Positions 3,762 through 46,762 of a DNA stretch of 64,000 nucleotides are shown here, piece by piece (the stretch's first letter is position 1; each line of letters begins with the position of its first letter). The translations under genes were made by a program, and so were the position numbers. The DNA comes from a virus: IMG/VR virus record IMGVR_UViG_3300003177_000020, positions 1-64,000 of that record; one strand, written 5' to 3'. The notes under the pieces were generated by a model. The model ran no database searches and was not told the origin of the DNA. It saw only the letters and a program-made list of their open reading frames with translations.

Positions 3762-4435
3762 ATTTTACTCGTGTATCAGGTCTTGTTTCAAATAATAATG
3801 ATCCCGCGAAAGCAGGACGGATCAAATGCACATTGCCTATTCTTGGTGGTTCCGAAGTGCCAGATTGGATTGCTCCCATTGCTGTGCCTAGTCTTTTTAT
3901 GATCCCACAGGTGGGAGATGAAGTTTTTTTGCTTATACCAGATGGTTTGAGTTTGGTGGAGTTTCCAGAAGAAATGCGGTGGATCGGTATTGGTTACGAT
4001 GCAGCACATGCTTTTCCATCAGCATTTACATCCGCATACGGCAAACAATATGGCATTCAAACACCAGCAGGTCATTTGTTACTTTTTGATGATAATTCAA
4101 AAGAAATTCATATTCGACATGCTGATGCCAAGGTGGATATCGCGGTTTTTGCGAATGGTAAGTTCAAGGTGAATGCTTCTAGTAGTGTTGTGCTTTCTAC
4201 TCCTCAGACGGAATTATCGGAACTTGCAACGGAACCGATCATCAAAGGCACTACGCAGTCGCAAGCATTCACGGCATATACGGCTGCTATTTCTGCTGCA
4301 GCAGCGACGTGGACATCCGCAGGTGCGCCAACACCCGCATCCAATGGTGCGTTCATAGCTTCGCTTATAGCTGCGACTTCTACGCTTGCTTCCACAATTG
4401 GTACGTGGACTAGCACAAAGGTCAAAACAGGCTAA
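3758..4435 (+). CDS. Baseplate central spike protein (gpV/gp5-like OB fold)
   Basis: 225 aa. It opens with a short OB-type domain: 'RVSGLVSNNNDPAKAGRIKC', then 'IPQVGDEVFLLIPDG', where the P-Q-V-G-D-E-V-x-L pattern is typical of VgrG/gp5/gpV spikes. Residues about 85-150 look like beta-helix repeats. The last 70 residues are Ala/Thr/Ser-rich (low complexity) and probably form a helical trimeric end. There is no lysozyme insertion. The hub lies directly upstream with a 4-nt overlap, matching the usual hub-spike pair. Confidence 0.75.
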   Translation: MNFTRVSGLVSNNNDPAKAGRIKCTLPILGGSEVPDWIAPIAVPSLFMIPQVGDEVFLLIPDGLSLVEFPEEMRWIGIGYDAAHAFPSAFTSAYGKQYGIQTPAGHLLLFDDNSKEIHIRHADAKVDIAVFANGKFKVNASSSVVLSTPQTELSELATEPIIKGTTQSQAFTAYTAAISAAAATWTSAGAPTPASNGAFIASLIAATSTLASTIGTWTSTKVKTG

Positions 4436-4812: not shown

Positions 4813-7296
4813 ATGGCTACAAAAATAATTGAGCTTACAGAGGGTATTGAGTTTGCATCGTTTTATTATCCTGAATTGCTTGAAACGCTGCTTTCTTTTT
4901 TGCGTAACAACAGAGATCGTTTAGGTCTTACGGATGAGAATGATTTTGAGGTGCATGTCCAATTGTTGCGTGCCTTTGCGTTGATTGGTCATTTGAATAA
5001 CACGAAATTGGATACTGTTGCGACTGAACTATTTCCAGATTCCGCAAGGTTGCTTGAAAGTTTGAAGCAGTTATTTCGGTTGATGGGTGTTGAATTATCT
5101 TCTGCCTCTCCTGCAACAGCGACTCTTGTGGCAAGGCTTACGGAAAGCACATCTATTGATACTGTGGCGTTTATCCCAGCACTTGCGGAGTTTACAACGG
5201 AATCCATACCACCGTTAGTTTTTGAGGCATCGGATCAAGGTGAAGATTTGGATGCCACGATTAATTGGAAGCATGTTTTTGCTTTAGAAAATCAAGGCAC
5301 GAGTAACGCGGGATCTGTAGATTTCAATGCAAATGATATTTTTACAGATCTCACAGTGGTTTTTCCTGCGGATGTTGTGGGAGATTTAATATATATTCCC
5401 GCGACAGATACAAGCTTGAATGAGGGGCTGTTTCGTGTTGTTGAAAGGCTCACAGACACATCAGTGCGCGTGGTATTGGAACCTGATGGTGCTGGCGCAA
5501 ATTTCAGCACTGAAACAGGGATCACATGGTATCGTTTGCGCTATTCTTCTGATTTTGCAACGGTGGCTGTAAGCTCAAATCCTGCTGATAATTTCTCACC
5601 ATTTGCATCCGCACCCTATATTTACGATGCGTTGTATTTGTGCCATAGACATATCATGCCGACTGAGATTGATATGACATTTGCTACAAATGGAGATTCT
5701 TTTACGGGTGTGTGGGAGTACTATGATAATGAGAGGTCAGAGTTTACACCGATCACAGTTTCGTTTTCGAGTCCTGATTTGACCTTTGATTTGCAGTCCT
5801 TGTTGGGTTCAGATGATCGTTCTGGCGCACAAGTTACAATCAAGTATCTGAAAACAGGAAAAACACACACGGTAACAAGCACCTATTCTGGCGGTAAAAA
5901 TATCGCAAAAACAACGTCATTGTTTGGGCAGACAAATCCAAGCGTTGATCCAGAAGATTATTCAATTACAAGTTTGTGGGTGCCATTCGATAATTTGAAA
6001 GATAACACGGTTGCTGCGAATAATTCTTGGGGTCAAAATGGCACAGTGTCTTGGGATTTACCACAAACATTTGATCGCTCGTGGATCAAGTCAAAACTCA
6101 ATAATGCTTCTTTGGGATACTGGTTCAGGTTTAGGGTTGTCACTGCAAATTTGGTAGGCACAAATCCTGTGGTTGATACCATTCTTAATACAGGAGATTC
6201 CTATGTTGCATTTGATGTGTTGCAAGGTGAAACTGCAGGCGATTTGGTTTTCGGTTCTTCGAGTGGGCAGCCAAATCAGAAATTCAAACTGCCAGATACA
6301 CCGTTTATTGATAACAGTGAAACGATAAGTGTTGATGAAGGTGGTGTCGGTGGCTTTGTAGAATACACCCGTGTTTCTAGCTTTTTGGAGTCAAATGCAA
6401 CTTCCAAACATTATATTGTACGCACAACTGCTAAAGGGGAAGCTGAGATCATTTTTGGTGATGGGCAGCGTGGTAAAATCCCTCCCATTGGAGTATCAAA
6501 TCTGAAGGCAAAATATCGCATCGGTGGCGGTGAAAATGGCAATGTTGGAGTGGATCAAATTGTTGTGAATGCCGATGGTGTCGGTGGATTAGCAGATATT
6601 CACAACCCCAGAAGTGCAACAGGGTGGCGTATCAAGGAGGGTGGTGATGATCTTGACTTCAAACGGATCAAAATCGACAAACCTTTGGAGATCGCTATTC
6701 GTGGTGTTGTTGTTCGTCCTGCCGATGCTGAGTATTTGGCGGTGCATAAATTTGTGGACTCCAAAGGCATCAAACCTGTGTCGCGTGCGTTTGCTATTGA
6801 AGAAGGATTTGGAATCAAAACAATCAAGTTGCTGGTGGTTGGTGTTGGCGGATCATCTCTTACAGTCACACAATTGCAAGACTTGAATCTTTATTTGAAT
6901 GGGGATCGGAATGCTGTGCCTCCTGTTGTTGGGGTTGCTCCTGCGAATACAAAAATAATTCCTGTGAATTTTGAACCCACACCGATTTCAATTGAGACAA
7001 CTGTTGTGTGGCATAATGGAAGTGCTGATGCCATCCGAAATAAATTGATCGCGTTTTTGACTCCTGATGCGGTGTTATCGGATGGCAGTACGTTTGCGTG
7101 GAATTTTGGTGGGCAGATTAGTTATTCGCGCGTGCATTCATTGATCCATAATGTGTCACCGAATATCCGCGATGTTCAAATTTTGAAACTGGCAAAGGGA
7201 TCAAATACATTAGCAGCTGCAAGTGTAAGTTTGGGGCAGAATGAATTGCCGATTACAAACAGCACATTAATCACTGTTACAATTTTGGAGCCGTAA
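4813..7296 (+). CDS. Baseplate J-like protein
   Basis: 827 aa, the largest intact tail gene here. The C-terminal third carries the baseplate J signature region: 'IRGVVVRPADAEYLAVHKFV' followed by 'INLxLxGDRNAVPPVVGV', strands and a last domain 'TVVWHNGSADAIRNKLIAFL...GGQISYSRVHSLI'. The middle contains 'EIIFGDGQRGKIPPIG', the FGDG...P turn seen in many J/gp6 proteins. The N-terminal 350 residues are beta-rich and unassigned. In the mature baseplate this family forms the wedge ring. It sits between the gp25-like wedge and tail protein I, the standard P2 order W-J-I. Confidence 0.8.
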   Translation: MATKIIELTEGIEFASFYYPELLETLLSFLRNNRDRLGLTDENDFEVHVQLLRAFALIGHLNNTKLDTVATELFPDSARLLESLKQLFRLMGVELSSASPATATLVARLTESTSIDTVAFIPALAEFTTESIPPLVFEASDQGEDLDATINWKHVFALENQGTSNAGSVDFNANDIFTDLTVVFPADVVGDLIYIPATDTSLNEGLFRVVERLTDTSVRVVLEPDGAGANFSTETGITWYRLRYSSDFATVAVSSNPADNFSPFASAPYIYDALYLCHRHIMPTEIDMTFATNGDSFTGVWEYYDNERSEFTPITVSFSSPDLTFDLQSLLGSDDRSGAQVTIKYLKTGKTHTVTSTYSGGKNIAKTTSLFGQTNPSVDPEDYSITSLWVPFDNLKDNTVAANNSWGQNGTVSWDLPQTFDRSWIKSKLNNASLGYWFRFRVVTANLVGTNPVVDTILNTGDSYVAFDVLQGETAGDLVFGSSSGQPNQKFKLPDTPFIDNSETISVDEGGVGGFVEYTRVSSFLESNATSKHYIVRTTAKGEAEIIFGDGQRGKIPPIGVSNLKAKYRIGGGENGNVGVDQIVVNADGVGGLADIHNPRSATGWRIKEGGDDLDFKRIKIDKPLEIAIRGVVVRPADAEYLAVHKFVDSKGIKPVSRAFAIEEGFGIKTIKLLVVGVGGSSLTVTQLQDLNLYLNGDRNAVPPVVGVAPANTKIIPVNFEPTPISIETTVVWHNGSADAIRNKLIAFLTPDAVLSDGSTFAWNFGGQISYSRVHSLIHNVSPNIRDVQILKLAKGSNTLAAASVSLGQNELPITNSTLITVTILEP

Positions 7297-22646: not shown

Positions 22647-22779
22647 TTACATGTCTCAAATACAGTATTGTTTGATCTCCTCTGGTATGTGCTGCCACCA
22701 CTGCCAAATAAGTGGAGTTGATCGCTTTAGTTCCCTTTCTCGGTCAGCTTCACTTCCCCTTTGGGGGTTTTCGTTATGA
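22639..22779 (+). CDS. Possible 46-aa leader-type ORF coupled to the polymerase gene
   Basis: ATG 22639 overlaps the end of the previous gene by 8 nt, with AGGGG about 10 nt upstream. Its TGA (22777-22779) overlaps the polymerase ATG (22776) as ATGA. The Cys/His-rich centre 'GMCCHHCQISG' is odd for random sequence but not diagnostic. A CCCC-TTT-GGGG hairpin followed by GTTTTCGTT (about 22756-22775) lies at its end, right before the polymerase start. It could be a coupled leader peptide or pure chance. Confidence 0.25.
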   Translation: MLDYMSQIQYCLISSGMCCHHCQISGVDRFSSLSRSASLPLWGFSL

Positions 22780-24500
22780 AACCGTCAAAGCCTGTATTCC
22801 TTGAGACAAGACCTCGTATTCCTGAACAGCATGATTGCTCTAAATGCCGACTGCACCGCAAAGTTGATGTGCCTTGCATGGATACATTATGGCGTGGTAA
22901 TGGTGCTATTTTGGCAGTCGGTGTGAATCCAGATCCTACAGATGATAAAGAGGGACTTCCGTTTTCTGGTGTGAAAGGAAAAAAGCTCGCATACTGCGCG
23001 GATCTGGCAGGTGTAGATGTTGAACAAATATCCCTTACAAATGTGGTGCGTTGTGCTATTGCAGGAAAAACCAAACCTAAAAAAGATCAATTGGTGGCTT
23101 GCGGTGGATACTTGCAATTTGAGATTTTTACAAAAAAACCAAAAGTGATCCTCGCTATGGGTGATCACGCTGCACAGCTTCTTTGTCCAGACTGGAATTA
23201 CACGGTGGATGTGTTGGGTAAGGATAAGCGTCAAAAAAAGAAACTCAAAGAATGGCGCGGATACCCTCAACGCTACACATACGAGGCTGCTGTAGATGGG
23301 AAGTATTACACACACACATGCTGGGTGATCCCGACATTCCATCCAAAATATTGTCTATCTAGTTGGGAACAAGATCCAATTTTAGCTTTCGATTTGAAAA
23401 CAGCATTTGATTATGTCAGTGGTGTTGAAAGCATTGTGAATCCAAATACAAAGATCACCGTGTATCGGGATCTTGCAAGCATTGAATCTTTGTTTTTGTA
23501 TCTGAAACAGAAGAAAACATATGTGCTGGATTTGGAAACAACAGGGTTGGATTTTAACAAAGACGAGATCATCAACATTTGTTTTTGCGCAGAAGAAGGC
23601 GATGCACATGTGATCCCATTGCTAAGTACATGCACTCCTGATATTCGGTATTCAAATTTTAATGAATGCGAGATCGAAGAACTGCGTAGCAAATTAGTGG
23701 ATCTATTTCTGCAAACGGAACTCATAGGTGCAAACATCAAATTTGACATCAAGTTTATGCGCACGTTTTTAGGTGGGTTCAACTCGTGGCGTATCTTTGC
23801 AGACACACAAATCATGCACCACATCGTACAGGAAAATCATCCTCACAATTTGAATTTTCTTACACAGTTTTATTTACGCTGGGAAAAATACGATGCTGAA
23901 ATTGATCATTTCAAAAAGCTGGATGAATTGAATTTATCCTATGCTCCCGAAGATTTGGTTTCCCGCTATGGTGGCACAGATGTCGATGGTACTTTGCGGG
24001 TGTATAATATTCTCAAAAAGATCATAGAAGATAAAAAACTCACTAAGGTCTTTCGTATTGAAATGGGGCTGTTGCTTCCTCTCGCAGATTTGGAGTGGGT
24101 GGGTGTTCATGCTTCAAGATCAACACTTTCAGATTTGGCTATTCGGTACAAAAAAGAAAAAGAAAAAAGTATCAAATACCTGAAGCGAAAGCATCGCGAG
24201 ATATTTGGAGTTGATGCATCTGAAACATTCAACCCTAACAGCAACGAAACAAAGAGTGGGCAGTATATGCTGGACAAGTTGGTGTTGAAAGATCTGGTTG
24301 TGAAAGGTGGCGTTCCTGCAACCATCGCAAAGCATGTGCAGCTGATCCGAAAATACACCAAATACATCTCAACCTATTTAGAGGGTAAGGATGGTGATGG
24401 TGGCATCCTAAAACGAATATCATCTGTAGATCGCATACATCCAGACTACAATATCACGGGTGCGCGGACTGGACGCCTTACAGAAAAGGTGATGGCCTGA
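22776..24500 (+). CDS. DNA polymerase I family, N-terminal part: UDG-like + 3'-5' exonuclease + start of polymerase
   Basis: 574 codons. Residues about 15-200: uracil-DNA glycosylase superfamily (family 4/5-like) with 'CSKCRLHRK', 'AVGVNPDPTDDKEGLPFSG', 'SLTNVVRCAIAGKTKPKK', 'VILAMGDHAAQLLC', as in the SPO1-type polymerase. About 245-400: DEDD exonuclease, 'YVLDLETTGLDF' (Exo I), 'GANIKFDIKFMRTFLG' (Exo II), 'YGGTDVDGTLRVYNIL' (Exo III). From 410: PolA palm/thumb, ending in 'GARTGRLTEKVMA' at TGA. The start ATG 22776 is preferred over an in-frame TTG at 22761. The frame changes here and the QNxP stretch is absent (see findings). Confidence 0.82.
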   Translation: MKPSKPVFLETRPRIPEQHDCSKCRLHRKVDVPCMDTLWRGNGAILAVGVNPDPTDDKEGLPFSGVKGKKLAYCADLAGVDVEQISLTNVVRCAIAGKTKPKKDQLVACGGYLQFEIFTKKPKVILAMGDHAAQLLCPDWNYTVDVLGKDKRQKKKLKEWRGYPQRYTYEAAVDGKYYTHTCWVIPTFHPKYCLSSWEQDPILAFDLKTAFDYVSGVESIVNPNTKITVYRDLASIESLFLYLKQKKTYVLDLETTGLDFNKDEIINICFCAEEGDAHVIPLLSTCTPDIRYSNFNECEIEELRSKLVDLFLQTELIGANIKFDIKFMRTFLGGFNSWRIFADTQIMHHIVQENHPHNLNFLTQFYLRWEKYDAEIDHFKKLDELNLSYAPEDLVSRYGGTDVDGTLRVYNILKKIIEDKKLTKVFRIEMGLLLPLADLEWVGVHASRSTLSDLAIRYKKEKEKSIKYLKRKHREIFGVDASETFNPNSNETKSGQYMLDKLVLKDLVVKGGVPATIAKHVQLIRKYTKYISTYLEGKDGDGGILKRISSVDRIHPDYNITGARTGRLTEKVMA

Positions 24501-24516
24501 CAATCCTGAAACAGAT

Positions 24517-25350
24517 GTGTTTTTGAGTGTGGATTATTCCAAAATGGAATTACGGGTTATGGCTTGGCTTGCGAATGAAAAATTGATGCTTGACGAGTTG
24601 CAATCGGATATTGATTTGCATACCAAGATGGCGGTCACTGCGAGGCTTATGCGTAATCCTACGGACGAGGAATATTATGCGATCTCTCCTGACGTAACAT
24701 CAAATGAACGTGCGATTGCAAAAGGTGCAAATTTTGGCATTCCATACGGTCGCGGTGCAGGTTCCATTGTTGCTGAGAATCCTAATTCATTCCCTGCGAA
24801 AATGAAGCACTGGGATCGCATCAAACAGGTTGATCGGATCATTGATGCCTACTATGAAAAATATCCAAACATTTATTCATACATGGAAAAGCAAAAAAGG
24901 ATTGCACATAAACGCATGTGGTTGCGCTCATCACAGACAGGCAGAATAAGAAACCTGTATGGTATGCGTTGGTTCAAATCGGAATTTGCAGAAGACTTGG
25001 ATAAATTTGAGAAAAGATTGATGCAAGGAGATATTGAACACATTGAACGGGAAGCCCAAAATTATCAGATACAAGAAATCGCTTCATCTATTTTGGCAAC
25101 ACAAACACGCATTGTTTACGATGCAATCCAAACACGACAACTAGGCATTCGGAATTTCAGGATCGTGCTAAGTATTCACGATCAACTTTTATTCAACTGC
25201 CACCGTGAGGACATTCAAAAAGCAGAAGTATTCGCACGGCAGCATATGGAAATTGTTCTGCCGAAAACAAAAAAGCAGAAGTACGAAATACCGATAACAG
25301 TTGATTCCGTGGTGCAGCGGGTATGGGGAGAGAACGAATACAATGACTGA
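24517..25350 (+). CDS. DNA polymerase I family, C-terminal part (palm/fingers)
   Basis: 277 codons, +1 relative to the previous frame; coding text starts before the GTG at 24517 ('DNPETDVF'). Motif A 'SVDYSKMELRVMAWLA', motif B 'RAIAKGANFGIPYGRG' (O-helix, with K, F/G-Y), motif C 'LSIHDQLLFN'. With the previous entry it makes one replicative polymerase. Between TGRL and DYS only about 17 residues are present, where this family normally has about 35, so roughly 53-55 nt seem missing. Whether a split, separately translated enzyme exists cannot be judged; no ribosome site is seen. Its stop overlaps the next ATG (ATGACTGA). Confidence 0.8.
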   Translation: MFLSVDYSKMELRVMAWLANEKLMLDELQSDIDLHTKMAVTARLMRNPTDEEYYAISPDVTSNERAIAKGANFGIPYGRGAGSIVAENPNSFPAKMKHWDRIKQVDRIIDAYYEKYPNIYSYMEKQKRIAHKRMWLRSSQTGRIRNLYGMRWFKSEFAEDLDKFEKRLMQGDIEHIEREAQNYQIQEIASSILATQTRIVYDAIQTRQLGIRNFRIVLSIHDQLLFNCHREDIQKAEVFARQHMEIVLPKTKKQKYEIPITVDSVVQRVWGENEYND

Positions 25351-36837: not shown

Positions 36838-37758
36838 ATGGCAAAAAGACGAAGCACCAAAAACAAACAAGAAACACAAACTCCAAAAAGCAACACTCAG
36901 GATGTCAAACCACTCTACAAAAAGAAACACAACATCGAAGACGTGCAGCCATTCAAAGACGTCACAGGCACATCCAGAAAGCTCACAAAAGAGATGGTCA
37001 TTGCCAGACGTATCCTCGTCCTGCAAGAGTTCGCCAGAGGCAAAGCACCTGAAGTTATCGCCTACGAAATCGGCACTTCAGAGGAAATTGTACAACGCGA
37101 ACTCGACATCGCTCTCGAAAAGATCGCAAACGAATACACGCACGCTTCACCTTCACAAATATTCGCCAAATACGCCACGTTCCAGTTCGGTGTCCTCAAT
37201 AAGATTCAAAAAGCTTATGAACGCTTTGCTGCCGATCCCTCCATGAAATCCGCATCCGCACAGATCTCCGCTCTCAAAACTCAATCCGATATCTATGACA
37301 AAATTATTCAAAAAGGCGTCGACTTCGGCATTATACAAAACAAACGTAAAAAGAAAGCACAAGACCTTCAATCACAAAATCCCGATCAACTCGCTGGCGT
37401 ACTTCAACAAGAAATTCAAGAAATGATTATCCTACTCAACGAAATCAACCCAAACGCTGCAAACAAAATTAAACAACAATTCAAACAAGAAAAACAAACA
37501 CAACCAAAAACACACACGAAACAAAACAACAATTCAAAACTTAAACAAATACCAAAACACAAAAAACAACAACTCGACAAATGGATGTTCAAAGGCAACG
37601 CTTCACCAGAAATTATCAAAGAACAAGAACTTCAAAAAGCTCTCGAAATTCAAGTCCAACTACACAAATCTAAAAAAGAAAACAATTCAAGCAATCAAGA
37701 CAACTCAACAGAACAAACTTCACAACAGACAAATACAAACACAGAAACAACAAAGTAA
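36838..37758 (+). CDS. Basic HTH-like protein with Gln/Asn/Thr-rich tail (possible small terminase)
   Basis: 306 aa, ATG after AAAGGAATACACA. N-terminal basic segment (MAKRRSTKNKQ). Residues about 58-102 carry a helix-turn-helix-like stretch 'ARRILVLQEFARGKAPEVIA' then 'YEIGTSEEIVQRELD'. Residues 105-210 are coiled coil-like, and the last 130 are Lys/Gln/Asn/Thr-rich low complexity. HTH plus coiled coil would suit a small terminase or a DNA-organising protein, but terL is 23 kb away. Codon choice (AAC, CAA, ATC) and an A/C-rich strand set it apart from genes before 30 kb. Confidence 0.65.
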   Translation: MAKRRSTKNKQETQTPKSNTQDVKPLYKKKHNIEDVQPFKDVTGTSRKLTKEMVIARRILVLQEFARGKAPEVIAYEIGTSEEIVQRELDIALEKIANEYTHASPSQIFAKYATFQFGVLNKIQKAYERFAADPSMKSASAQISALKTQSDIYDKIIQKGVDFGIIQNKRKKKAQDLQSQNPDQLAGVLQQEIQEMIILLNEINPNAANKIKQQFKQEKQTQPKTHTKQNNNSKLKQIPKHKKQQLDKWMFKGNASPEIIKEQELQKALEIQVQLHKSKKENNSSNQDNSTEQTSQQTNTNTETTK

Positions 37759-37827
37759 AAATCAAATATAACAGTAGGACATATAAGAAAAGATCATTTC
37801 ACATTTATTAGAGATTCATACCAGCTT

Positions 37828-37922
37828 CATAGTGGTTTCATGGGGCAGTCATAGGTGGAGTCATCAGTGCTTTACCATAGTGGTATTAGGGGCATTCATA
37901 GGTGGCATCATTAGAGCTTTAT
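37828..37922 (+). repeat. Two imperfect tandem copies of a ~48-bp unit
   Basis: Unit 1 (37828-37875) and unit 2 (37876-37922) both run CATAGTGGT...GGGGCA.TCATAGGTGG..TCAT.AG.GCTTTA. A decayed third copy may continue to about 37945. The repeat lies just after the basic HTH-like gene at the start of a non-coding kilobase. It could be a protein-binding site. Confidence 0.6.
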
Positions 37923-37945
37923 GAGGGCTTCATGATTGTGGTTGG

Positions 37946-38761
37946 TCACAAAGCACAACCACCTGCACCTCCCTATAATTCCCGTGTCATCGGCATATAT
38001 GGGGTTGTAAGCTGCGACTATCTGCCCTTGATTCCTGTCTTCTTTTCCCACGCTGGAATCTTTCCAGACCTTTCTTGCTGCTAAAAAGTGTTCATTTTGG
38101 TGTTTGCTACGCGGTAATTGTTTTGTTGTTGTTGGCATAAAGCTGCGTTATCGTTTAGCTTTTGCTTGTTTTGGTTGTGGTGTAAAAGAAAAGTGTCACG
38201 CGGTGGATCATTCTTGATGGCAGAATGCTTGATTTTGAGTGAAATGTGTTGTTGGCAGCAAATTGGATTTTCCTTTTATGAATCAGTATCTTGCCCTTGT
38301 TTTGTGTTGTTTTTATTTGTAAGAAAAAGTCTGATTGTCTAAAAAGTGAACTACCCGTGTCAATTTTGAAGTTCAAAAAATAGTGTAATGATTTTAGTTG
38401 TTTATCTTTGTAAGAATTTCCCTACACGTGTTTATTGTGCTTTGTTGTGATCTGCTGTTGTTGAGGCTGTGCCGTGTTGAAGGTCTAAACAGGTGATTTG
38501 TTGTTATTGTAACAGAAAGGCTAGTTTTAGGCGTTTTATATGCTTGCTAGATAGATTGTATTGGTTGCGTTGAGTTTTTGCGTAATAGGGCTATTTCTGT
38601 GCTTCGATTTTAAGTGGGTTGTTTTTGTGATCTGGTATGGTGATCCTACGATGTGATCTGCTGTGTGTTGAATTTGTATGGTGTACGTGGTGTTTTCTTG
38701 TTGGTGTTGGTAGTAAAAGCGTAGAGTTATTAGTAAGATGCTAACTTTTTTTATTTATTTC
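37946..38761. other. Non-coding G/T-rich region
   Basis: About 820 nt without a credible gene: open frames here lack ribosome sites and are low complexity. It holds the first copy of a ~230-nt duplicated non-coding element (38197-38440) and leads into the promoter at 38762. It resembles intergenic spacers of the following small-gene cassettes. Confidence 0.6.
38197..38440 (+). repeat. Duplicated non-coding element, copy 1
   Basis: Imperfect copy of 39612-39840. Shared landmarks: CACGCGGT, TCCTTTTAT..A..AGTATCTT, TTTGTAAGAAAAAGTCTGAT (38316-38335), GTAATGATTTTA, and AATTTCCCTACA (about 38415-38426). Conservation of landmarks in order, without an open frame, suggests a functional RNA or regulatory sequence rather than a decayed gene. 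Confidence 0.6.
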
Positions 38762-38790
38762 TTGTATCTGTCATAGGTTAGAGCTACTAT
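38742..38790 (+). promoter_or_regulatory. Cassette promoter TTGTAT-17-TACTAT
   Basis: Upstream element CTAACTTTTTTTATTTATTT, then TTGTAT (38762-38767), 17 nt, TACTAT (38785-38790). Drives the genes at 38834 and 39050. Confidence 0.72.
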
Positions 38791-38813
38791 TTGAACATAA
38801 GGAAACGACAACA

Positions 38814-38826
38814 ACTCAAAAGGAGT
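38814..38826 (+). promoter_or_regulatory. Hairpin-type ribosome site ACTCAAAAGGAGT
   Basis: ACTC and GAGT can pair around AAAAG, placing the Shine-Dalgarno GGAG in a small stem. The same 13-mer is found before genes at 39050 (39030-39042), 46283 (46288-46302), 53580 (53586-53598) and 54156 (54163-54175), with variants at 41626-41640 and 52611-52623. Confidence 0.65.
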
Positions 38827-38833
38827 AAAGAAG

Positions 38834-38956
38834 ATGACAAACGCAGACTGGAAAGCCTACAAAGACGCAAGACGAAAAAGAATCATCAAAGAGAGCATCT
38901 GGATGGCAGCTGCGGTAGCCCTCAAGGCAGCCAGCTACTACGTGATTTTCTGCTAA
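38834..38956 (+). CDS. 40-aa basic peptide, first gene of cassette A
   Basis: MTNADWKAYKDARRKRIIKE start, then a hydrophobic helix 'SIWMAAAVALKAASYYVIF' that could insert in a membrane. The ATG lies 7 nt after the hairpin-type site ACTCAAAAGGAGT, which strongly supports translation. No family recognised; such peptides early after a strong promoter are often host-takeover factors. Confidence 0.6.
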   Translation: MTNADWKAYKDARRKRIIKESIWMAAAVALKAASYYVIFC

Positions 38957-39049
38957 GGAACCACGGCAGATACAGAGAACAAATATTTCTTGTAACATGA
39001 AAAGGTAGTAATACCGCTACCTTGTAACCACTCAAAAGGAGTGAAGAAG

Positions 39050-39307
39050 ATGGAAACAGTACGCATGATCACAGGTGCAGAGTTGGACGCAAAGCTGGCA
39101 AAGAACATGGAATTTGAAGCGTGGATGGACGATGTGGATGCCATGATTCAACGTCTAACAGGATTAGGATGTGATGATTTTGTTGACATCTGCTACAGAG
39201 ATCTTTTCGACGCAGGATGTCTTCCCGATGGCGCACTTGAAGAACTGGCAGCGCAAGACAGCGTTTTTGCTGAGTTTATGCGAGCAGAGGGCTACCACAT
39301 CGATTGA
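39050..39307 (+). CDS. Small acidic protein, second gene of cassette A
   Basis: 85 aa, ATG 39050, 7 nt after a second exact copy of ACTCAAAAGGAGT. 'EFEAWMDDVDAMIQRLTGLG' and 'DDFVDICYRDLFDAGCLPD' give an acidic, helical protein. No family recognised. Probably cotranscribed with the 40-aa gene. Confidence 0.65.
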   Translation: METVRMITGAELDAKLAKNMEFEAWMDDVDAMIQRLTGLGCDDFVDICYRDLFDAGCLPDGALEELAAQDSVFAEFMRAEGYHID

Positions 39308-39390
39308 TTGGATCGAAACAACAAACAACAACGCAGCACGCAATAAGGCAACGCTGCACAACAGCCTGATAGAAGGCAAAGGACACGGTT

Positions 39391-39615
39391 ATGAAAATGG
39401 CACACGTAGCGAGAATCATTGATAATTTTGACCAAAATGTCATTGTTGCAACACCAACCAAACGAGGCATTCGCATCGGAGATGAACATCATCGGTGTTG
39501 GTTGGACAAGAAACAGGCAACCAAAGCAGTCCGAAAACTGAAGAAATTGAAAGGACAAGTTGGCGATTCTTATGAGGATTTTTGGGCAGCCATTGATTTT
39601 GGATTGCAAAAGTGA
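39391..39615 (+). CDS. Small hypothetical protein
   Basis: 74 aa. ATG 39391 follows GGCAAAGGACACGGTT, where GCC/GGC pair in a small hairpin just before AAAGGA, a second recurrent leader type here (also at 40071 and 40859). N-terminal beta strands ('VIVATPTKRGIRIGDEHH'), then a basic helix 'KKQATKAVRKLKKLKGQVG'. No family recognised. Confidence 0.62.
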   Translation: MKMAHVARIIDNFDQNVIVATPTKRGIRIGDEHHRCWLDKKQATKAVRKLKKLKGQVGDSYEDFWAAIDFGLQK

Positions 39616-39840
39616 CACGCGGTTGTTCTTTTCTACCAGCAGCCTTTCTTTTGAAATTCCTTTTATAGAATAGTATCTTACCATGCTTTTATGTGGTGTT
39701 GCTTATTTCTGCATTTGTAAGAAAAAGTCTGATGGACAATTTTGGTGTGTCCCTCGTGCAGATTTTAAAATGCAAGACACAAATGTAATGATTTTACGGA
39801 CTTATCCTTTGTAGGAATTTCCCTACAAGCACTTTTATAC
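39612..39840 (+). repeat. Duplicated non-coding element, copy 2
   Basis: Second copy of 38197-38440 beginning at the stop of the 39391 gene. Contains TTTGTAAGAAAAAGTCTGAT (39714-39733), GTAATGATTTTA and the near-palindrome GTAGGAATTTCCCTAC (39811-39826). In this copy the palindrome is a better stem (GTAGG/CCTAC) than in copy 1. Confidence 0.6.
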
Positions 39841-39979
39841 AGGATGTGATCTTGGAAGGTGATCCGTATGATCTCCAAAAGTGATCTGTATTGGCAGATA
39901 ATTGGTGGTTCCACGGCAGTCCTGATGGGTAAGATTGTGTGTTTTTGAAAATAATTGTGTAGTGATAACGCCTACATAC
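39841..39979. other. Spacer before cassette promoter
   Basis: No gene. GATC-rich stretch followed by GATAACGCCTACATACTAAC, a sequence repeated before the 40.79 kb promoter (AATAACGCCTAGATGCTAAC). Confidence 0.5.
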
Positions 39980-40028
39980 TAACTTTTTTTATTTATTCCC
40001 TGTATTTTGCATCAAACATCTGTATACT
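39979..40028 (+). promoter_or_regulatory. Cassette promoter CTGTAT-17-TATACT
   Basis: ACTAACTTTTTTTATTTATT, then CTGTAT (40000-40005), 17 nt, TATACT (40023-40028). It is followed by the conserved leader CATAACGAAGC and drives genes at 40097 and 40341. Confidence 0.68.
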
Positions 40029-40096
40029 AAGGACATAACGAAGCAGCGCACAACGCAACGTTTCACAACAGCCCATAAGAGGCAAAGGAAAAGATC

Positions 40097-40303
40097 ATGA
40101 CAAAGAAACAAAGAGAAGAAAGCCAACTCGCAGAAACAAACTTCAACGTACAAAGACTCTGCGAAGAAGCCCAACAAAAGCTGGCAGAAATTGCAGAGGG
40201 TATCAACCGCAACCACAACCTTGAAACAGCCAGCGAAATTGAAGAAAGCCTCGCATACTTCGTAGATCAACTCAACGGATTACGCAAACAAATCAAAGCG
40301 TAA
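40097..40303 (+). CDS. Small coiled-coil protein, cassette B
   Basis: 68 aa, ATG 40097 with GGCAAAGGAAAAGATC upstream. Entirely helical, acidic/basic heptads ('LCEEAQQKLAEIAEGINRN', 'IEESLAYFVDQLNGLRKQI'). No family recognised. Confidence 0.62.
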   Translation: MTKKQREESQLAETNFNVQRLCEEAQQKLAEIAEGINRNHNLETASEIEESLAYFVDQLNGLRKQIKA

Positions 40304-40340
40304 GCCAAACAGCAACCCAAAAAGGGAAAGGACAACAATC

Positions 40341-40492
40341 ATGGACAGACTTGAAGAATTGGAATCAAACATCATCAACCTGACCTAGATCATTTTGATT
40401 TACCCTCGGAACACACCGCGATAGCAATGGCAACCGAACTGAAACAAGCGGTACTTATCCTCACCAAATACCGCAAGAAGCTCAAAGGCTAA
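40341..40492 (+). pseudogene. Tiny gene broken by a frame change
   Basis: ATG 40341 (GGGAAAGGACAACAATC upstream) reads MDRLEELESNIINLT and stops at TAG 40386-40388. The -1 frame from about 40383 continues 'DHFDLPSEHTAIAMATELKQ' and '...VLILTKYRKKLKG' to TAA 40490-40492, giving a sensible ~50-aa helical protein. A missing base near 40380 would restore it. Either an assembly error or a real lesion. Confidence 0.5.
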
Positions 40493-40766
40493 AAGGCTAA
40501 CACCCGCAACATCCTACCACGCAGCCCTTCCTGCACGCTTTCTTTTCAATTCCCTATAATTACCCCACAAACACAATCGCAGCCCTTGTGTCGGCTGTAT
40601 CGCGGTATCTGGTAGGTTGTACATTATGTTGCACTTGTGATCTGCAGCTGATGATCTTGGTAGGCGATCAAGCTTGTTTCCTATGGATTATGATCGGATC
40701 ACTTACAGAAAAAGATCATTCTGTCTAAATAGCAAACATAATTCTTTAGCAATAACGCCTAGATGC
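40493..40766. other. Spacer between cassettes
   Basis: No gene. Begins with CTACCACGCAGCCCTTCCTG and TTCAATTCCCTATAATT..CCC, phrases echoed after 41299 and near 37965, then a GATC-rich part and the AATAACGCCTAGATGC block before the promoter. Confidence 0.5.
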
Positions 40767-40815
40767 TAACTTTTTATAAATAAAGCTTGTAAAGTGAAGT
40801 GATCCTAGCTACTAT
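40767..40815 (+). promoter_or_regulatory. Cassette promoter TTGTAA-17-TACTAT
   Basis: GCTAACTTTTTATAAATAAA, TTGTAA (40787-40792), 17 nt, TACTAT (40810-40815), followed by CATAACGAAGC. Best match to consensus on this strand; drives the gene at 40883. Confidence 0.75.
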
Positions 40816-40882
40816 CACAACATAACGAAGCGGGACGCAATAAAGCAAACCGCGCAACGCCTAAAAGGCAAAGGATAAGAAA

Positions 40883-41299
40883 ATGGAAAACATGACAAAA
40901 ACCGAACAGTTCAACCTTTTGGAAGGCATCACGCTCAAGACGATCAAAGGACGCGCTGAGATGCTCAAGCAGAAAGTTTTGAACGCCATCCAAGGGAACT
41001 GCGCAGCCTTTCGAATTGAGGAACTCTGCAAATCGGAAGCCTACACCGAACATCTGATGCGGTACGAGAGGCTGCGCAACCACAAAGATTTTGAAAACCG
41101 ACCATTTGACGCCTACTTGGAAGCCATGAAGCACCAAGAAAGAGTTCTTTTCTCACAGGCAGATGGCGAATTTTCAACCAGCGCAGCTTACCGCTGCAAC
41201 GCGCACTATAAAATACAAGTGGCGCGGGAACTGATGCAAGACCCTCTCTACCAAATGGCAAAAGACGCATCTGCCGAATACAAGGCAAACGAAGCGTAA
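40883..41299 (+). CDS. Hypothetical protein, cassette C
   Basis: 138 aa, ATG 40883 with GGCAAAGGATAAGAAA upstream (GCCTAAAAGGC hairpin). Helical, rich in Glu/Lys/Tyr, with 'AFRIEELCKSEAYTEHLMRY' and 'FSTSAAYRCNAHYKIQVARE'. No family recognised. A strong dedicated promoter points to high early expression. Confidence 0.65.
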   Translation: MENMTKTEQFNLLEGITLKTIKGRAEMLKQKVLNAIQGNCAAFRIEELCKSEAYTEHLMRYERLRNHKDFENRPFDAYLEAMKHQERVLFSQADGEFSTSAAYRCNAHYKIQVARELMQDPLYQMAKDASAEYKANEA

Positions 41300-41532
41300 C
41301 ACACGCCAAACAAAAGCCCACCCGATCAAACCTACCAGCAGCCTCCTAATTCCCCACAAAGCGCAACACAAACAAACCTCGCGCAAGTCCCTCCTTTGAT
41401 CTGCATACAAACAGGCAGGACTTGGGATAGGCGCAGCCTCCCTGCGTTGCCTTATGGTCGCGTAATTCAGATCACATTAGGATCACTTCTACAATTCGCA
41501 CTTTCAATTCTTTAGTCTTATCGCTTACTTGC
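41300..41532. other. Spacer between cassettes
   Basis: No gene. Contains CCTACCAGCAGCCTCCTAAT, recalling the spacers after 39615 and 40492, and a GATCACATTAGGATCACTTC stretch. Confidence 0.5.
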
Positions 41533-41581
41533 TAACTATTTTTATTTATTCCTTGTAAGTTACACCGATCATCTCTACTAT
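41533..41581 (+). promoter_or_regulatory. Cassette promoter TTGTAA-17-TACTAT
   Basis: CTAACTATTTTTATTTATTC, TTGTAA (41553-41558), 17 nt, TACTAT (41576-41581). Drives the gene at 41645. Confidence 0.75.
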
Positions 41582-41644
41582 AAGAATCAAGAAACGGGTA
41601 ACGCAATAAAGCACAGCCCAACAACAACTCTAAAGGAGTTCAAA

Positions 41645-41926
41645 ATGATTACATCAAACAAAGCCTACCACGAAGCAGCAAACAACAACGCAGCATTTGA
41701 AGCACTCGCAACACAACACGGACATGAAGCGGTAGCAGATGCGCTGGCAACCTACCACCAAGAACACGCAACATTCAATGATAACGGTGAGTTGGAAGTG
41801 CCTAACGAAGACTTCCCAACAGCAGATGACGGCTACACAGTTGACCAATGGGTTGCAGACGTACTCAACGGAAATGGCGACGATGGCGAAGATTTGATAC
41901 CAACAGAAGAAGACTTCATCATCTAA
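41645..41926 (+). CDS. Small acidic protein, cassette D
   Basis: 93 aa, ATG after AACTCTAAAGGAGTTCAAA, a variant of the hairpin-type ribosome site. Strongly acidic, with Asn/Ala-rich start ('YHEAANNNAAFEALATQHGH') and a C-terminus full of Asp/Glu ('NGNGDDGEDLIPTEEDF'). Acidic DNA mimics and anti-restriction proteins share such composition, but there is no specific match. Followed by a good terminator. Confidence 0.65.
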   Translation: MITSNKAYHEAANNNAAFEALATQHGHEAVADALATYHQEHATFNDNGELEVPNEDFPTADDGYTVDQWVADVLNGNGDDGEDLIPTEEDFII

Positions 41927-41957
41927 GAAAAACCAAAAGAAAACGCAAGCTTAGAAT

Positions 41958-41988
41958 GCTCTAGCAGAACATCGCTAGGGCTTTTTTT
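41958..41988 (+). terminator. Rho-independent terminator
   Basis: GCTCTAGC (41958-41965) pairs with GCTAGGGC (41974-41981; one G.U) over AGAACATC, followed by TTTTTTT. It closes the rightward small-gene strip before the leftward block. Confidence 0.85.
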
Positions 41989-42257
41989 GTAACCACACCA
42001 TGCCATCCTACAACCACCTACCAGAACATAGCAAGCGATACAGGCTACACAGCGCGATTACAACAGGCAACATAACCCAACGTACCAATAGCAGCCTAAA
42101 ACGCCACAAACGCAACATATAGCCTTCCTCGTACAAGTTAGAGGCTACCATGCACACCTTCATTCATAGGGGGGGGGATTAGGAGGGGTTACAAAACACA
42201 ACGGATGCGATCAATTTTGAAATAAGTTCACTTGCAGTAATGGCACTTGCAGTAAGT
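41989..42257. other. Convergent non-coding region
   Basis: No gene supported. Contains a run of nine G (42169-42177) and a short duplicated phrase CACTTGCAGTAA (42229-42240 and 42243-42260 area). Lies between the rightward terminator and the end of the leftward gene block. Confidence 0.5.
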
Positions 42258-44348: not shown

Positions 44349-44614
44349 GGTGGAAAATCAGCATGGCGATCCTCTGGCTCTGCTTTCTTCACTTCAAAAA
44401 TATATTCTGCCATTTGATCCCAAACGCTATCCACCTCGGCATCTTCACCCCACTGCGCACGGTAGTCATCGATCATCTTGATAATTGAGGTGCGTACAAA
44501 ATCCTTTACAGATTCAATGCTTCCAGTGTAGCAGCCACAAAAAATATCGCTTGTGTTGCCGTTTATCGTGGAGACTTTGATCACATATTTTTCATTGTCG
44601 AATCGTCGTTTCAT
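44321..44614 (-). CDS. Hypothetical protein
   Basis: 97 aa. ATG 44614 overlaps the stop of the upstream gene (TAATG). 'FDNEKYVIKVSTINGNTSDI', 'YTGSIESVKDFVRTSIIKMI', ends Pro/His-rich. No family recognised. Confidence 0.6.
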   Translation of the reverse strand: MKRRFDNEKYVIKVSTINGNTSDIFCGCYTGSIESVKDFVRTSIIKMIDDYRAQWGEDAEVDSVWDQMAEYIFEVKKAEPEDRHADFPPCFPPSSHL

Positions 44615-44991
44615 TACACAAACTCCCAAGAGCAGATTACCAAAGGAAGAAGCCCATTGTGACCGTCAATTGCTGTATGTTTGATATCCTGCACGCAGCA
44701 TCGGATGTGTTTTCCTTTTGTGTGCCATGTTCTCGGTCGTTTGAATTTTTTGCACAGGGAGTTCTTTGTTCGCCACCAACCGTTACCAGTGGAAACTCCT
44801 ATTTGTACGACTGCTTGCGGTGCAGACAAAAATGATCCTTCCGCAGTTGAACACGGTACAATTTGATCTTGGGAAAAATAAACTCCCAAACCTTCCGCAT
44901 TTTGCTGCCCACAATGGAGAGTGAATGTCTCTCCAACTTTTGCTTGTGCTGCCTCTTTCCAGTTTGTAATATGAAAAAGCTTGTGTTCCAT
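44614..44991 (-). CDS. Hypothetical protein, promoter-proximal
   Basis: 125 aa, ATG 44991 after CACGAAGGAGATCACAAGA. Cys/His/Trp-containing beta-rich protein: 'HCGQQNAEGLGVYFSQDQIV', 'GVSTGNGWWRTKNSLCKKF', 'HIRCCVQDIKHTAIDGHNGL'. First gene after a strong leftward promoter of the repeated type. No family recognised. Confidence 0.62.
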   Translation of the reverse strand: MEHKLFHITNWKEAAQAKVGETFTLHCGQQNAEGLGVYFSQDQIVPCSTAEGSFLSAPQAVVQIGVSTGNGWWRTKNSLCKKFKRPRTWHTKGKHIRCCVQDIKHTAIDGHNGLLPLVICSWEFV

Positions 44992-45038: not shown

Positions 45039-45087
45039 AGCTTACGATTGATCACGTACACTTACAAGATTTATTTATAAAAAGTTA
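45039..45087 (-). promoter_or_regulatory. Leftward promoter TTGTAA-17-TAAGCT
   Basis: On the minus strand CTAACTTTTTATAAATAAAT precedes TTGTAA (45062-45067), 17 nt, TAAGCT (45039-45044). Same upstream element as the rightward cassette promoters; drives 44991 and the genes after it. Confidence 0.68.
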
Positions 45088-45111: not shown

Positions 45112-45399
45112 ATGACACACAGAATGTTACGATTTGAAGAAATGATCTCCGAGATCGCATCCACAACGGGAGCCACAAAAAAGGAAGCTGCCAAAGTGAT
45201 CAACGCTTACATTGATCTTATAGATCGGGAACTGCAAGAAGGAAATGATGTCCGCTTGAAAGGGATCGGCAGATTTTGTGTTCGCACTTCCAAATCCAAG
45301 AAAGTGATCAACAAATATTTTGGTGTGAATCGCACCATACCACCGAAGAAATACATACATTTTCAATGCAGTGAAAAAATGCTGCGAAGAATCAACTAG
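45112..45399 (+). CDS. HU/IHF-family DNA-binding protein
   Basis: 95 aa, ATG after CGAAAGGCAAAGACA. HU pattern: 'EMISEIASTTGATKKEAAKV', 'YIDLIDRELQEGNDVRLKGI' (the GxxVxLxGxGxF motif: 'DVRLKGIGRFCVRTSKSKK'), a short arm around 'NRTIPPKKYIHF', final helix 'SEKMLRRIN'. It would bend DNA for replication, packaging or transcription. Divergent from the leftward promoter 45 nt upstream. Confidence 0.85.
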   Translation: MTHRMLRFEEMISEIASTTGATKKEAAKVINAYIDLIDRELQEGNDVRLKGIGRFCVRTSKSKKVINKYFGVNRTIPPKKYIHFQCSEKMLRRIN

Positions 45400-45425
45400 G
45401 TATTAGATCTTAGGAGATTCCTCGG

Positions 45426-45442
45426 TCGACAATTGGTGTCGA
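45426..45442 (+). terminator. Possible terminator hairpin after HU gene
   Basis: TCGACA (45426-45431) and TGTCGA (45437-45442) pair around ATTGG, followed by TTCTTCG. Short stem and poor T-run. Confidence 0.3.
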
Positions 45443-45614
45443 TTCTTCGCAGCCGATCTTTGTTGGTGGCAGCCAGTATAGCACACTTTCTTTTCTTCCT
45501 TTTCCTATGCGGTAGGTGTGCCAGTGTGCGCGTCTCCAATGTGCTGCCTTTTGACTTCCGTTGCTGTTGCTATGTTGCGCAGTTCCTGTGGTGTTTTTGA
45601 TATCGCTACCACGT

Positions 45615-46283
45615 CTATACCCAACATCGAAGCTGACGACTGCGCTTCATCCTGTGTTTGATATCTGCATTTTTGCAGCAAATATAAAGAAGCAAGTTGA
45701 TCCCAATGTTTGCGATCTTGAAGATCGGTTCAAACACAGATCCATCGTAATTTACACCACCATCACGAATGCCTGTGATGATTGCCTCTTTGATTCCCAT
45801 ACCAGAAATAAATGGAATGAATAGTGGCAAAGGAACTCCCGTTTCAAAAAAGACTGTGATACGCAATTCCTCTTTATAATTCAATGTGTTCATGTGATCA
45901 TCAAACCAGTCAATCGAACACAAGAATCCTTCAATGTTTTGTTTCCCATATGGTATGAAGATTGCCCATTCTGGCATCTTGTACAGCAGTTCAAATGGGA
46001 GTGGTTTATTCCCCAGTTCAGTAGGCACAATCTTACCGATCAAATCTTCCTTGATCGTGTAAATGCCCTTTGTATACCACCAATTGAGATATGTGGAATA
46101 TTCCCATGCGTCTCGTAATTTCTGATTGTAAGCTTTCGCATATTCCACACCAAAACTGATGGGGAATAAAACATGTTCGGGTATGTTATCGAATTGGTTG
46201 TCGCGCACGGCTTGCATTGCCAGTGCTGCAAAGTGCTTGTTGTTATCAATATGGGTTCGAACTGTGGAGAGAAATTTACGCAT
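45615..46283 (-). CDS. AcrVA2-like protein (putative anti-CRISPR)
   Basis: 222 aa, ATG 46283 after CACTCAAAAGGAGTGATTC. Order of features resembles AcrVA2, the inhibitor that blocks Cas12a production: an N-terminal helix then 'HVLFPISFG', a helix ending 'YLNWWYTKGIYTIKEDLIGK', 'LPFELLYKMPEWAIFIPYGK' (the LPxW-x-x-[FY] stretch), 'EGFLCSIDWFD', a strand with hydrophobic alternation, and 'VPLPLFIPFISGMGIKEAII'. The comparison is from memory of the family and was not computed. The protein lacks the long C-terminal part of AcrVA2. Early-region neighbours fit a host-defence role. Confidence 0.6.
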   Translation of the reverse strand: MRKFLSTVRTHIDNNKHFAALAMQAVRDNQFDNIPEHVLFPISFGVEYAKAYNQKLRDAWEYSTYLNWWYTKGIYTIKEDLIGKIVPTELGNKPLPFELLYKMPEWAIFIPYGKQNIEGFLCSIDWFDDHMNTLNYKEELRITVFFETGVPLPLFIPFISGMGIKEAIITGIRDGGVNYDGSVFEPIFKIANIGINLLLYICCKNADIKHRMKRSRQLRCWV

Positions 46284-46332
46284 GAATCACTCCTTTTGAG
46301 TGTTGGTGATGGTTGCCTGTATGATCTTTTTG

Positions 46333-46668
46333 TTACACAAGATCCGTGATATCTACATCACAGTCAAAGAAGTTTTCTTCCAAAAATGCCAGTCTGTTTC
46401 GCACTTGCTGGCGTCGCTCTTCTTGTTCTTCTTTGAGTAAAATCTTGTTGTATGTTTTGTCGGAGCAGATTGCCTCGACTTCATTTTGAAGTATTTGTTT
46501 GTGGTTCATGTAGTAAGATGTGCGCTCCCATGCGCTTGCGCTTTCTGCCTCACGCTTCAATTCTTCTGCTCGTATTTTCAAGCTTGGAACTTCCCTGATG
46601 GCGAGGTTGTAGATCCATTCAAAGTTTGTTTTTGCTTTTTCTTCTTTGTAGTTTTTGTAGCTGTTCAT
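46333..46668 (-). CDS. Charged helical protein, promoter-proximal
   Basis: 111 aa, ATG 46668 with CCAAGGAGAACAGAG upstream. Coiled-coil-like with 'IRAEELKREAESASAWERTS' and 'LLKEEQEERRQQVRNRLAFL', acidic end. First gene after the promoter at 46.7 kb and just ahead of the AcrVA2-like gene, so the two share a transcript. Anti-CRISPR genes often travel with a small regulator; no HTH is obvious here. Confidence 0.62.
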   Translation of the reverse strand: MNSYKNYKEEKAKTNFEWIYNLAIREVPSLKIRAEELKREAESASAWERTSYYMNHKQILQNEVEAICSDKTYNKILLKEEQEERRQQVRNRLAFLEENFFDCDVDITDLV

Positions 46669-46713: not shown

Positions 46714-46762
46714 ATAGTAGAGATGATCACTTCATTTTACAAGAAATAAATAAAAATAGTTA
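46714..46762 (-). promoter_or_regulatory. Leftward promoter TTGTAA-17-TACTAT
   Basis: Minus strand: GCTAACTATTTTTATTTATT, then TTGTAA (46737-46742), 17 nt, TACTAT (46714-46719). Excellent match to consensus; drives 46668 and the AcrVA2-like gene. Confidence 0.75.

Follow-up and report, generated by a model that had tools for sequence, protein, structure and literature searches.

An uncultivated phage appears to carry a full-length gene of the superfamily that includes AcrVA2 and the plasmid protein FinQ, and in the record as assembled the frame of this gene is very probably interrupted in the linker that precedes its RRxHWH module. The gene lies in a stretch of 64,000 nucleotides (positions 1 to 64,000 of IMG/VR record IMGVR_UViG_3300003177_000020), the whole of which is referred to here as the window. 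The initial annotation had described its longer open reading frame, ORF A, as an AcrVA2-like putative anti-CRISPR that lacks the long C-terminal part and, if confirmed, is a short natural variant of the family. That observation was partly confirmed, and the interpretation placed on it was partly supported. The features of the locus are as follows.

45615-46283, minus: ORF A, 222 amino acids from an ATG start, with the AcrVA2/FinQ N-terminal domain and most of the middle domain
46290-46294, minus: AGGAG ribosome-binding site of ORF A, by direct reading
45410-45646, minus: frame B, in the +1 frame, with the C-terminal module (FDVG..., RRAHWH, WLPP); open over 45413-45646, stop codon at 45410-45412
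45618-45646, minus: overlap of frames A and B, 29 nucleotides, with no stop codon between them
46333-46668, minus: small upstream gene, 111 amino acids, with an ATG at 46668 and an AGGAG ribosome site
45112-45399, plus: gene for an HU/IHF-like DNA-binding protein (PF00216, E 7.3e-19; phrog_379), adjoining the broken gene and convergent with it

Family membership and predicted fold

The assignment of ORF A to an AcrVA2-like family was borne out both by profile searches and by the predicted fold. Residues 8-217 of ORF A matched positions 27-237 of the 322 positions of phrog_6160 in PHROGs (E 2.6e-15), a phage family annotated as 'function unknown'. When a profile of ORF A and seven relatives was compared with AcrVA2 and the rest of the PDB, the only distinct sequence found up to an E value of 10 was AcrVA2 itself (7ci1/7ci2, E 5.7e-39). 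ORF A matched no family in Pfam, NCBIfam or PADLOC, and phmmer with ORF A alone found nothing in the PDB up to E 10. Direct blastp against a set of 88 sequences was weak for AcrVA2 (E 0.011) and for the annotated FinQ (E 0.046), and the nearest sequence in that set was L031, a Marinomonas protein (31% identity, E 3e-15). By tblastn up to E 1, ORF A matched 3 phage records (best E 9e-7) and 408 plasmid records; among the matches listed, 30 of these 408, at least 22 were annotated as finQ (E 0.03 to 0.1), and the better ones came from Nitrosomonas, Pectobacterium and Variovorax (E 1e-6 to 2e-4). Hypothetical proteins of Leptospira phage LE1, Pasteurella phage Pmp12 and CFP3 (L001, L002 and L006) showed 25-26% identity to ORF A by tblastn and, unlike the window gene, are each encoded in one uninterrupted frame, C-terminal module included.

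The order of conserved motifs points in the same direction. Four landmarks of AcrVA2 had been recognised in ORF A by the initial annotation, and three of them were found in order and aligned with AcrVA2 in alignment A4, where the AcrVA2 reference row (L076, a locus of the virus collection) is 100% identical to 306 compared residues of 7ci1. These are EHVLFPIS in ORF A opposite KHAFFPMQ in AcrVA2, KGIY opposite LGIY, and MPEW opposite LPDW together with an aromatic strand. The fourth landmark, S-x-x-E-[AV]-x-x-x-G, is present only loosely, as GIKEAIITG in ORF A against SVAEVLDYG in AcrVA2, the S being absent in ORF A. The last 11 or so residues of ORF A showed no homology to the AcrVA2/FinQ family.

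AlphaFold models were built from family alignments, and because AcrVA2 was among their rows the models are not independent of the AcrVA2 family. The ORF A model (43 family rows, pLDDT 84, pTM 0.84, with residues 212-222 below a pLDDT of 50) superposed on AcrVA2 chain 7ci2_A in VIA-align with a Z score of 15.2 and an rmsd of 3.6 over 199 aligned residues at 18% identity, the next unrelated structure scoring 3.4. For the protein obtained by reading through from frame A into frame B (pLDDT 86), the corresponding values were a Z score of 20.0 and an rmsd of 4.3 over 254 aligned residues at 16% identity, with the next unrelated structure at 2.8. A Foldseek search of the PDB with the ORF A model gave no match at E<=0.001, and the structural match to AcrVA2 was obtained by realigning the top 1000 Foldseek entries. 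In BFVD there were nine matches at E<=0.001, and the six that carry names consisted of five uncharacterized phage proteins and one 'putative mycothiosynthase' of an Erwinia phage.

AcrVA2 of Moraxella bovoculi prophages (7ci1, 7ci2, L076) thus shares with the window gene a fold and an order of conserved motifs, and the window gene differs from it by a broken frame, a linker about half as long and an identity of 16-18% in structural alignments. Four further AcrVA2 proteins of Moraxella bovoculi (L072-L075) were found at 56-57% identity. The full FinQ ORF of locus L005 (2237-3325, 363 amino acids) also matched 7ci1 in the PDB (E 3.7e-17), and FinQ and AcrVA2 are 24% identical over 242 residues. 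This FinQ, from an IncI plasmid, is annotated from position 2549, and the start at ATG 2237 gives the better match to AcrVA2 (5.3e-12 from the annotated start). The matches to the profiles, to the PDB and to L076 together place AcrVA2, FinQ, phrog_6160 and the window gene, as judged from sequence, in one superfamily.

A quick maximum-likelihood tree with 146 rows grouped the five AcrVA2 proteins of Moraxella in a clade (SH-aLRT 100) that leaves the window protein outside. The window protein has a branch 2.92 long and sits beside L038 (91), in a group of eight rows with FinQ and Pasteurella phage proteins (85); these long-branch joins are flagged by the tree program as possibly false, and no well-supported set holds the window protein. 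The relatives, of which 80 of 131 genome loci and 80 of 96 viral loci were kept, come from at least ten phyla by their labels, and many are metagenome bins. One viral contig, L039, encodes two family members on opposite strands, 2680-3858 (+) and 4994-5959 (-), and several copies per genome were seen in Azohydromonas and in a Blastocatellia bin.

The breadth of AcrVA2 relatives was partly known before. Proteins clustering with AcrVA2 are described from huge phages (PMC7162821), a Shewanella phage gene is named AcrVA2 (PMC10846135), a structure search with 7ci1 returned 342 hits (PMC12230656), and AcrVA2 is given a length of 322 amino acids (PMC7556299, PMC6538845). A literature search for AcrVA2 orthologs together with Leptospira yielded nothing useful. 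For the virus itself, no close relatives were found by megablast of 24 kb against phages, a terminase scan, an ORF A scan or three exact patterns. Its terminase, MoxR-like ATPase and primase gave weak protein matches only, insufficient to assign a host, and for the primase the best of them were to Tunturiibacter phages at 28-30%.

The C-terminal module and the interrupted frame

Profile A2, made from seven relatives with the window left out, was run against all six-frame ORFs of at least 20 codons in the window. Two matches were obtained, both on the minus strand, at 45618-46286 (model positions 52-213, E 2.7e-21) and at 45413-45646 (model positions 234-308, E 8.5e-15), and the third-best match in the window reached only E 1.3. 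The C-terminal part that had been described as lacking is therefore absent from ORF A yet encoded at 45410-45646, and the RPHIRRAHWH module lies in the +1 frame and not in the open frame of ORF A. Frame B reads SFDVGYRRG...AAHWRRAHWHTYRIGKG...VLYWLPP, and the corresponding blocks of the family are WDVGxRIG, RPHIRRAHWHGYWxG and WLPP. The sole ATG, GTG or TTG codon of frame B is residue 55, past the RRAHWH motif at residue 38. FinQ (L005), which is plasmid-borne and has an intact frame of 363 amino acids, matched frame B at 35% over 72 residues (E 4e-9) and ORF A over 30 residues only (E 0.046).

Homology in frame A stops, and homology in frame B starts, at about 45640-45655, which we infer to be a deletion or frameshift junction. 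The linker from LLY to DVGx has 25 residues in the read-through protein. Of the 96 aligned rows, duplicates included, 9 do not extend across this region; the other 87 all have 37-51 residues there, and the window linker falls short of each of them by 12 residues or more. A shortened linker combined with a change of frame is what an out-of-frame deletion would leave, and this suggests that such a deletion, whether real or an assembly error, was the cause. The loss of some tens of bases would be the simplest way to interrupt the gene between the middle domain and the RRxHWH module. The description of ORF A as a short natural variant was not upheld, because the window encodes the two parts of a full-length gene, each in its own frame, with a linker between them shorter than in any relative that spans it.

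As assembled, the gene would make a 222-residue product whose last 11 or so residues are unrelated and which is without the most conserved module of the family. For want of that module the product is probably inactive, or else the record is wrong and the gene is intact. It is improbable that the 222-residue protein works without its C-terminal module, perhaps as a binder only. ORF A does have a good ribosome site and the repeated promoter-like element, and it is predicted to fold well up to residue 211. In addition, three relatives (L146, L151 and L157) end near WDVG, before the C-terminal module, in DNA that continues and in which no module was found. However, 7 of the 9 invariant columns of the 43-row alignment A6 fall in the part lost from ORF A, and just behind ORF A the DNA continues to encode the module in another frame, whereas a long-standing short variant would have lost it.

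Interrupted copies were also found elsewhere in the family. They occurred at 3 of 80 viral loci (L034 and L035, which are identical over the gene, and L078) and, at the matched gene, at 3 of 80 genome loci (L104, L129 and L139), with a further one as the second copy in L107; contig ends cut six further loci (L070, L083, L141, L144, L152 and L166) among the 160 fetched. The frame is broken between the ALR and RPH stretches in L034/L035, L078 and L139, and L104 carries an in-frame stop in this interval. A stop falls within the RRAHWH block in the second copy of L107 and earlier in L129, and the window gene is broken before WDVG. The breaks seem to be concentrated around the final linker ahead of RPHIRRAHWH.

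Programmed frameshifting at a conserved break site was considered and rejected, as the family copies break at differing places, and for the same reason a family-wide programmed frameshift is unlikely. For the window gene alone, programmed +1 frameshifting in the 29-nucleotide overlap, joining frames A and B, is very unlikely. Such a mechanism could use an overlap that has no stop between the frames, and the read-through protein does give a good AcrVA2-like model; the joined product would nevertheless have the short linker described above, no known slippery site was recognised in the overlap by eye, and the other broken copies are interrupted elsewhere.

The favoured reading is one full-length gene with an interrupted frame. 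Since conserved residues and open frames are kept in both halves, the lesion is either recent or absent from the real genome. The second case, in which the virus has an intact gene and the record has dropped some tens of bases, is a serious possibility within this reading, although we would stop short of calling it probable. The record is a metagenomic virus contig, and the essential-looking DNA polymerase A gene at 22761-25347 on the plus strand is broken in the same way, being split between two frames.

22761-24497, plus: polymerase ORF 1, with UDG, exonuclease and the start of the polymerase domain (profile positions 49-123 of 381, E 3.6e-5, below the Pfam cut-off)
24493-25347, plus: polymerase ORF 2, with the rest of the polymerase domain in another frame (profile positions 154-381, E 2.5e-32)

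TGRL and DYS are 64 nucleotides apart in the window and 51 and 50 codons apart in a pair of phage polymerases, so that about 30 codons are missing (a third polymerase, L175, did not match the pattern used). The NLQQVP stretch of two phage relatives is without a counterpart in the window polymerase; this stretch reads NLQNIP elsewhere. A search for the missing piece elsewhere in the window gave one six-letter match, at 41375, which was dismissed because its frame has no polymerase context. In ORF 1 a uracil-DNA glycosylase domain is fused ahead of the exonuclease and polymerase domains. Several points weigh against a loss confined to the record. Breaks are not everywhere, as a single ORF covers at least four fifths of the Pfam domain in seven other genes (helicase, DUF6744, 5'-3' exonuclease, RecA, phosphoesterase, methylase and KTSC). 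The usual error involves one base and not tens, and copies of the AcrVA2/FinQ family are broken elsewhere too.

The repeated promoter-like element

The initial annotation had placed ORF A in an early region, under a strong repeated promoter and behind one small upstream gene. The repeated element consists of TAACT-N-TTT followed by TTGTAA. The pattern TAACTNTTT-(5-14)-TTGTAA has five copies in the window (16366+, 40767+, 41533+, 45087- and 46762-), compared with a mean of 0.02 in 100 single-letter shuffles, and in three of the five (40767+, 41533+ and 46762-) it continues as N17-TACTAT. Two copies lie close to the broken gene.

46714-46762, minus: element copy TAACTATTTTT...TTGTAA-N17-TACTAT, upstream of the two-gene unit with ORF A
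45039-45087, minus: element copy without TACTAT, upstream of the minus-strand gene at 44614-44991

ORF A is the second gene of this two-gene unit and the gene at 46333-46668 is the first. The product of the first gene, scanned without its first residue, matched no family at E<0.01 in PHROGs, Pfam, NCBIfam or PADLOC. A general sigma-70 consensus scan showed no excess (39 found against 39.9 expected), and the case for a promoter consequently rests on the specific repeat. With the repetition and the upstream gene both found, the earlier description of the region is a fair one, in which the strength of the promoter and its early timing are presumptive. If intact, the protein would have been made under the repeated, probably early, promoter of the phage.

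Weaker copies of the element occur in the 38-42 kb region, including copies ahead of small ORFs at 38.7 and 40.0 kb. The plus strand of 37750-42000 is a region of small ORFs, several of which are preceded by an element copy, and further shared leader sequence, CGCAATAAGGCAA-like and AAAGGAGT, follows the element copies there. Just upstream of the HU/IHF-like gene (45112-45399, plus), a promoter-like copy lies on the opposite strand. An Rfam scan of 36-50 kb returned nothing at the gathering threshold, and no tRNA was found in the 64-kb window.

FinQ, Cas12a and the role of the superfamily

AcrVA2 is the relative from which a mechanism can be proposed. AcrVA2 is reported to recognise an N-terminal LSKT peptide of nascent Cas12a, after which the mRNA is degraded, and structure 7ci2 contains an internal Cas12a peptide (PMC13131331); a conference report describes the same mechanism and its extension to tagged Cas9 and Cas12f (PMC12908700). 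By analogy with this one relative, the window gene in its ancestral, intact form probably encoded a protein that bound a short stretch of some polypeptide under synthesis and reduced the level of the corresponding mRNA. An intact protein of this kind would silence one chosen host or competitor protein during translation, and that protein need not be Cas12a.

Cas12a as the target of the window gene is unsupported. A search for Cas12a (TIGR04330) gave none in 75 genomes that carry relatives (0/50 and 0/25), many of them possibly incomplete metagenome bins, and none in 14 control genomes; as a control of the search, 4 of 390 genomes of the order of one carrier were positive at E<=0.001, 2 of them over the cut-off. 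Given the many incomplete bins and the low base rates, the 0/75 result means no more than that the presence of the family is not tied to that of Cas12a. It is hardly credible that the window gene is an active Cas12a inhibitor of the AcrVA2 type. Homology and a common fold do link the window protein to AcrVA2, but the frame is broken, the protein falls outside the Moraxella AcrVA2 clade in the quick tree, and no Cas12a was found in the 75 genomes with relatives.

FinQ offers a second point of comparison. According to a review, this fertility inhibitor acts on the transfer genes of the F plasmid and ends transcription of the tra operon at multiple sites in a Rho-independent manner, for which Ham and Skurray 1989 are credited (PMC8744291). 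Transcript loss at many sites would also be the expected appearance of co-translational mRNA decay. FinQ relatives in plasmids have been surveyed, with no anti-CRISPR named in the portion of that survey available (PMC5696584), and within the literature collection searched, which does not extend to bioRxiv or the majority of subscription journals, no paper deals with both FinQ and anti-CRISPR, or with both 'fertility inhibition' and AcrVA2. The motif [LIVM]S[KR][TS] was found in the first 40 residues of 0 of 33 F plasmid Tra/Trb proteins, with 0.5 expected in shuffles, and the full LSKT occurred nowhere in the 33. This result speaks against the AcrVA2 rule holding unchanged for FinQ, although FinQ need not read the same peptide.

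Tentatively, AcrVA2 may be an outlying branch of a large superfamily of nascent-chain-guided mRNA silencers, carried by phages and conjugative plasmids in many phyla, for which CRISPR is one target. FinQ would act in a like manner, by sensing nascent Tra proteins and causing loss of their mRNA rather than termination of transcription, and the window gene would be a decayed member. The present results withdraw a supposed 'natural minimal AcrVA2' on which truncation studies could have been modelled, and the case shows how a gene that is broken may pass for a short variant when ORFs are read. Of wider interest is the homology of AcrVA2 and FinQ. Together with the failure to find Cas12a in any of 75 genomes that carry relatives, it raises the testable question of whether mobile elements in general use co-translational mRNA silencing as a weapon, the peptide pocket setting the target.
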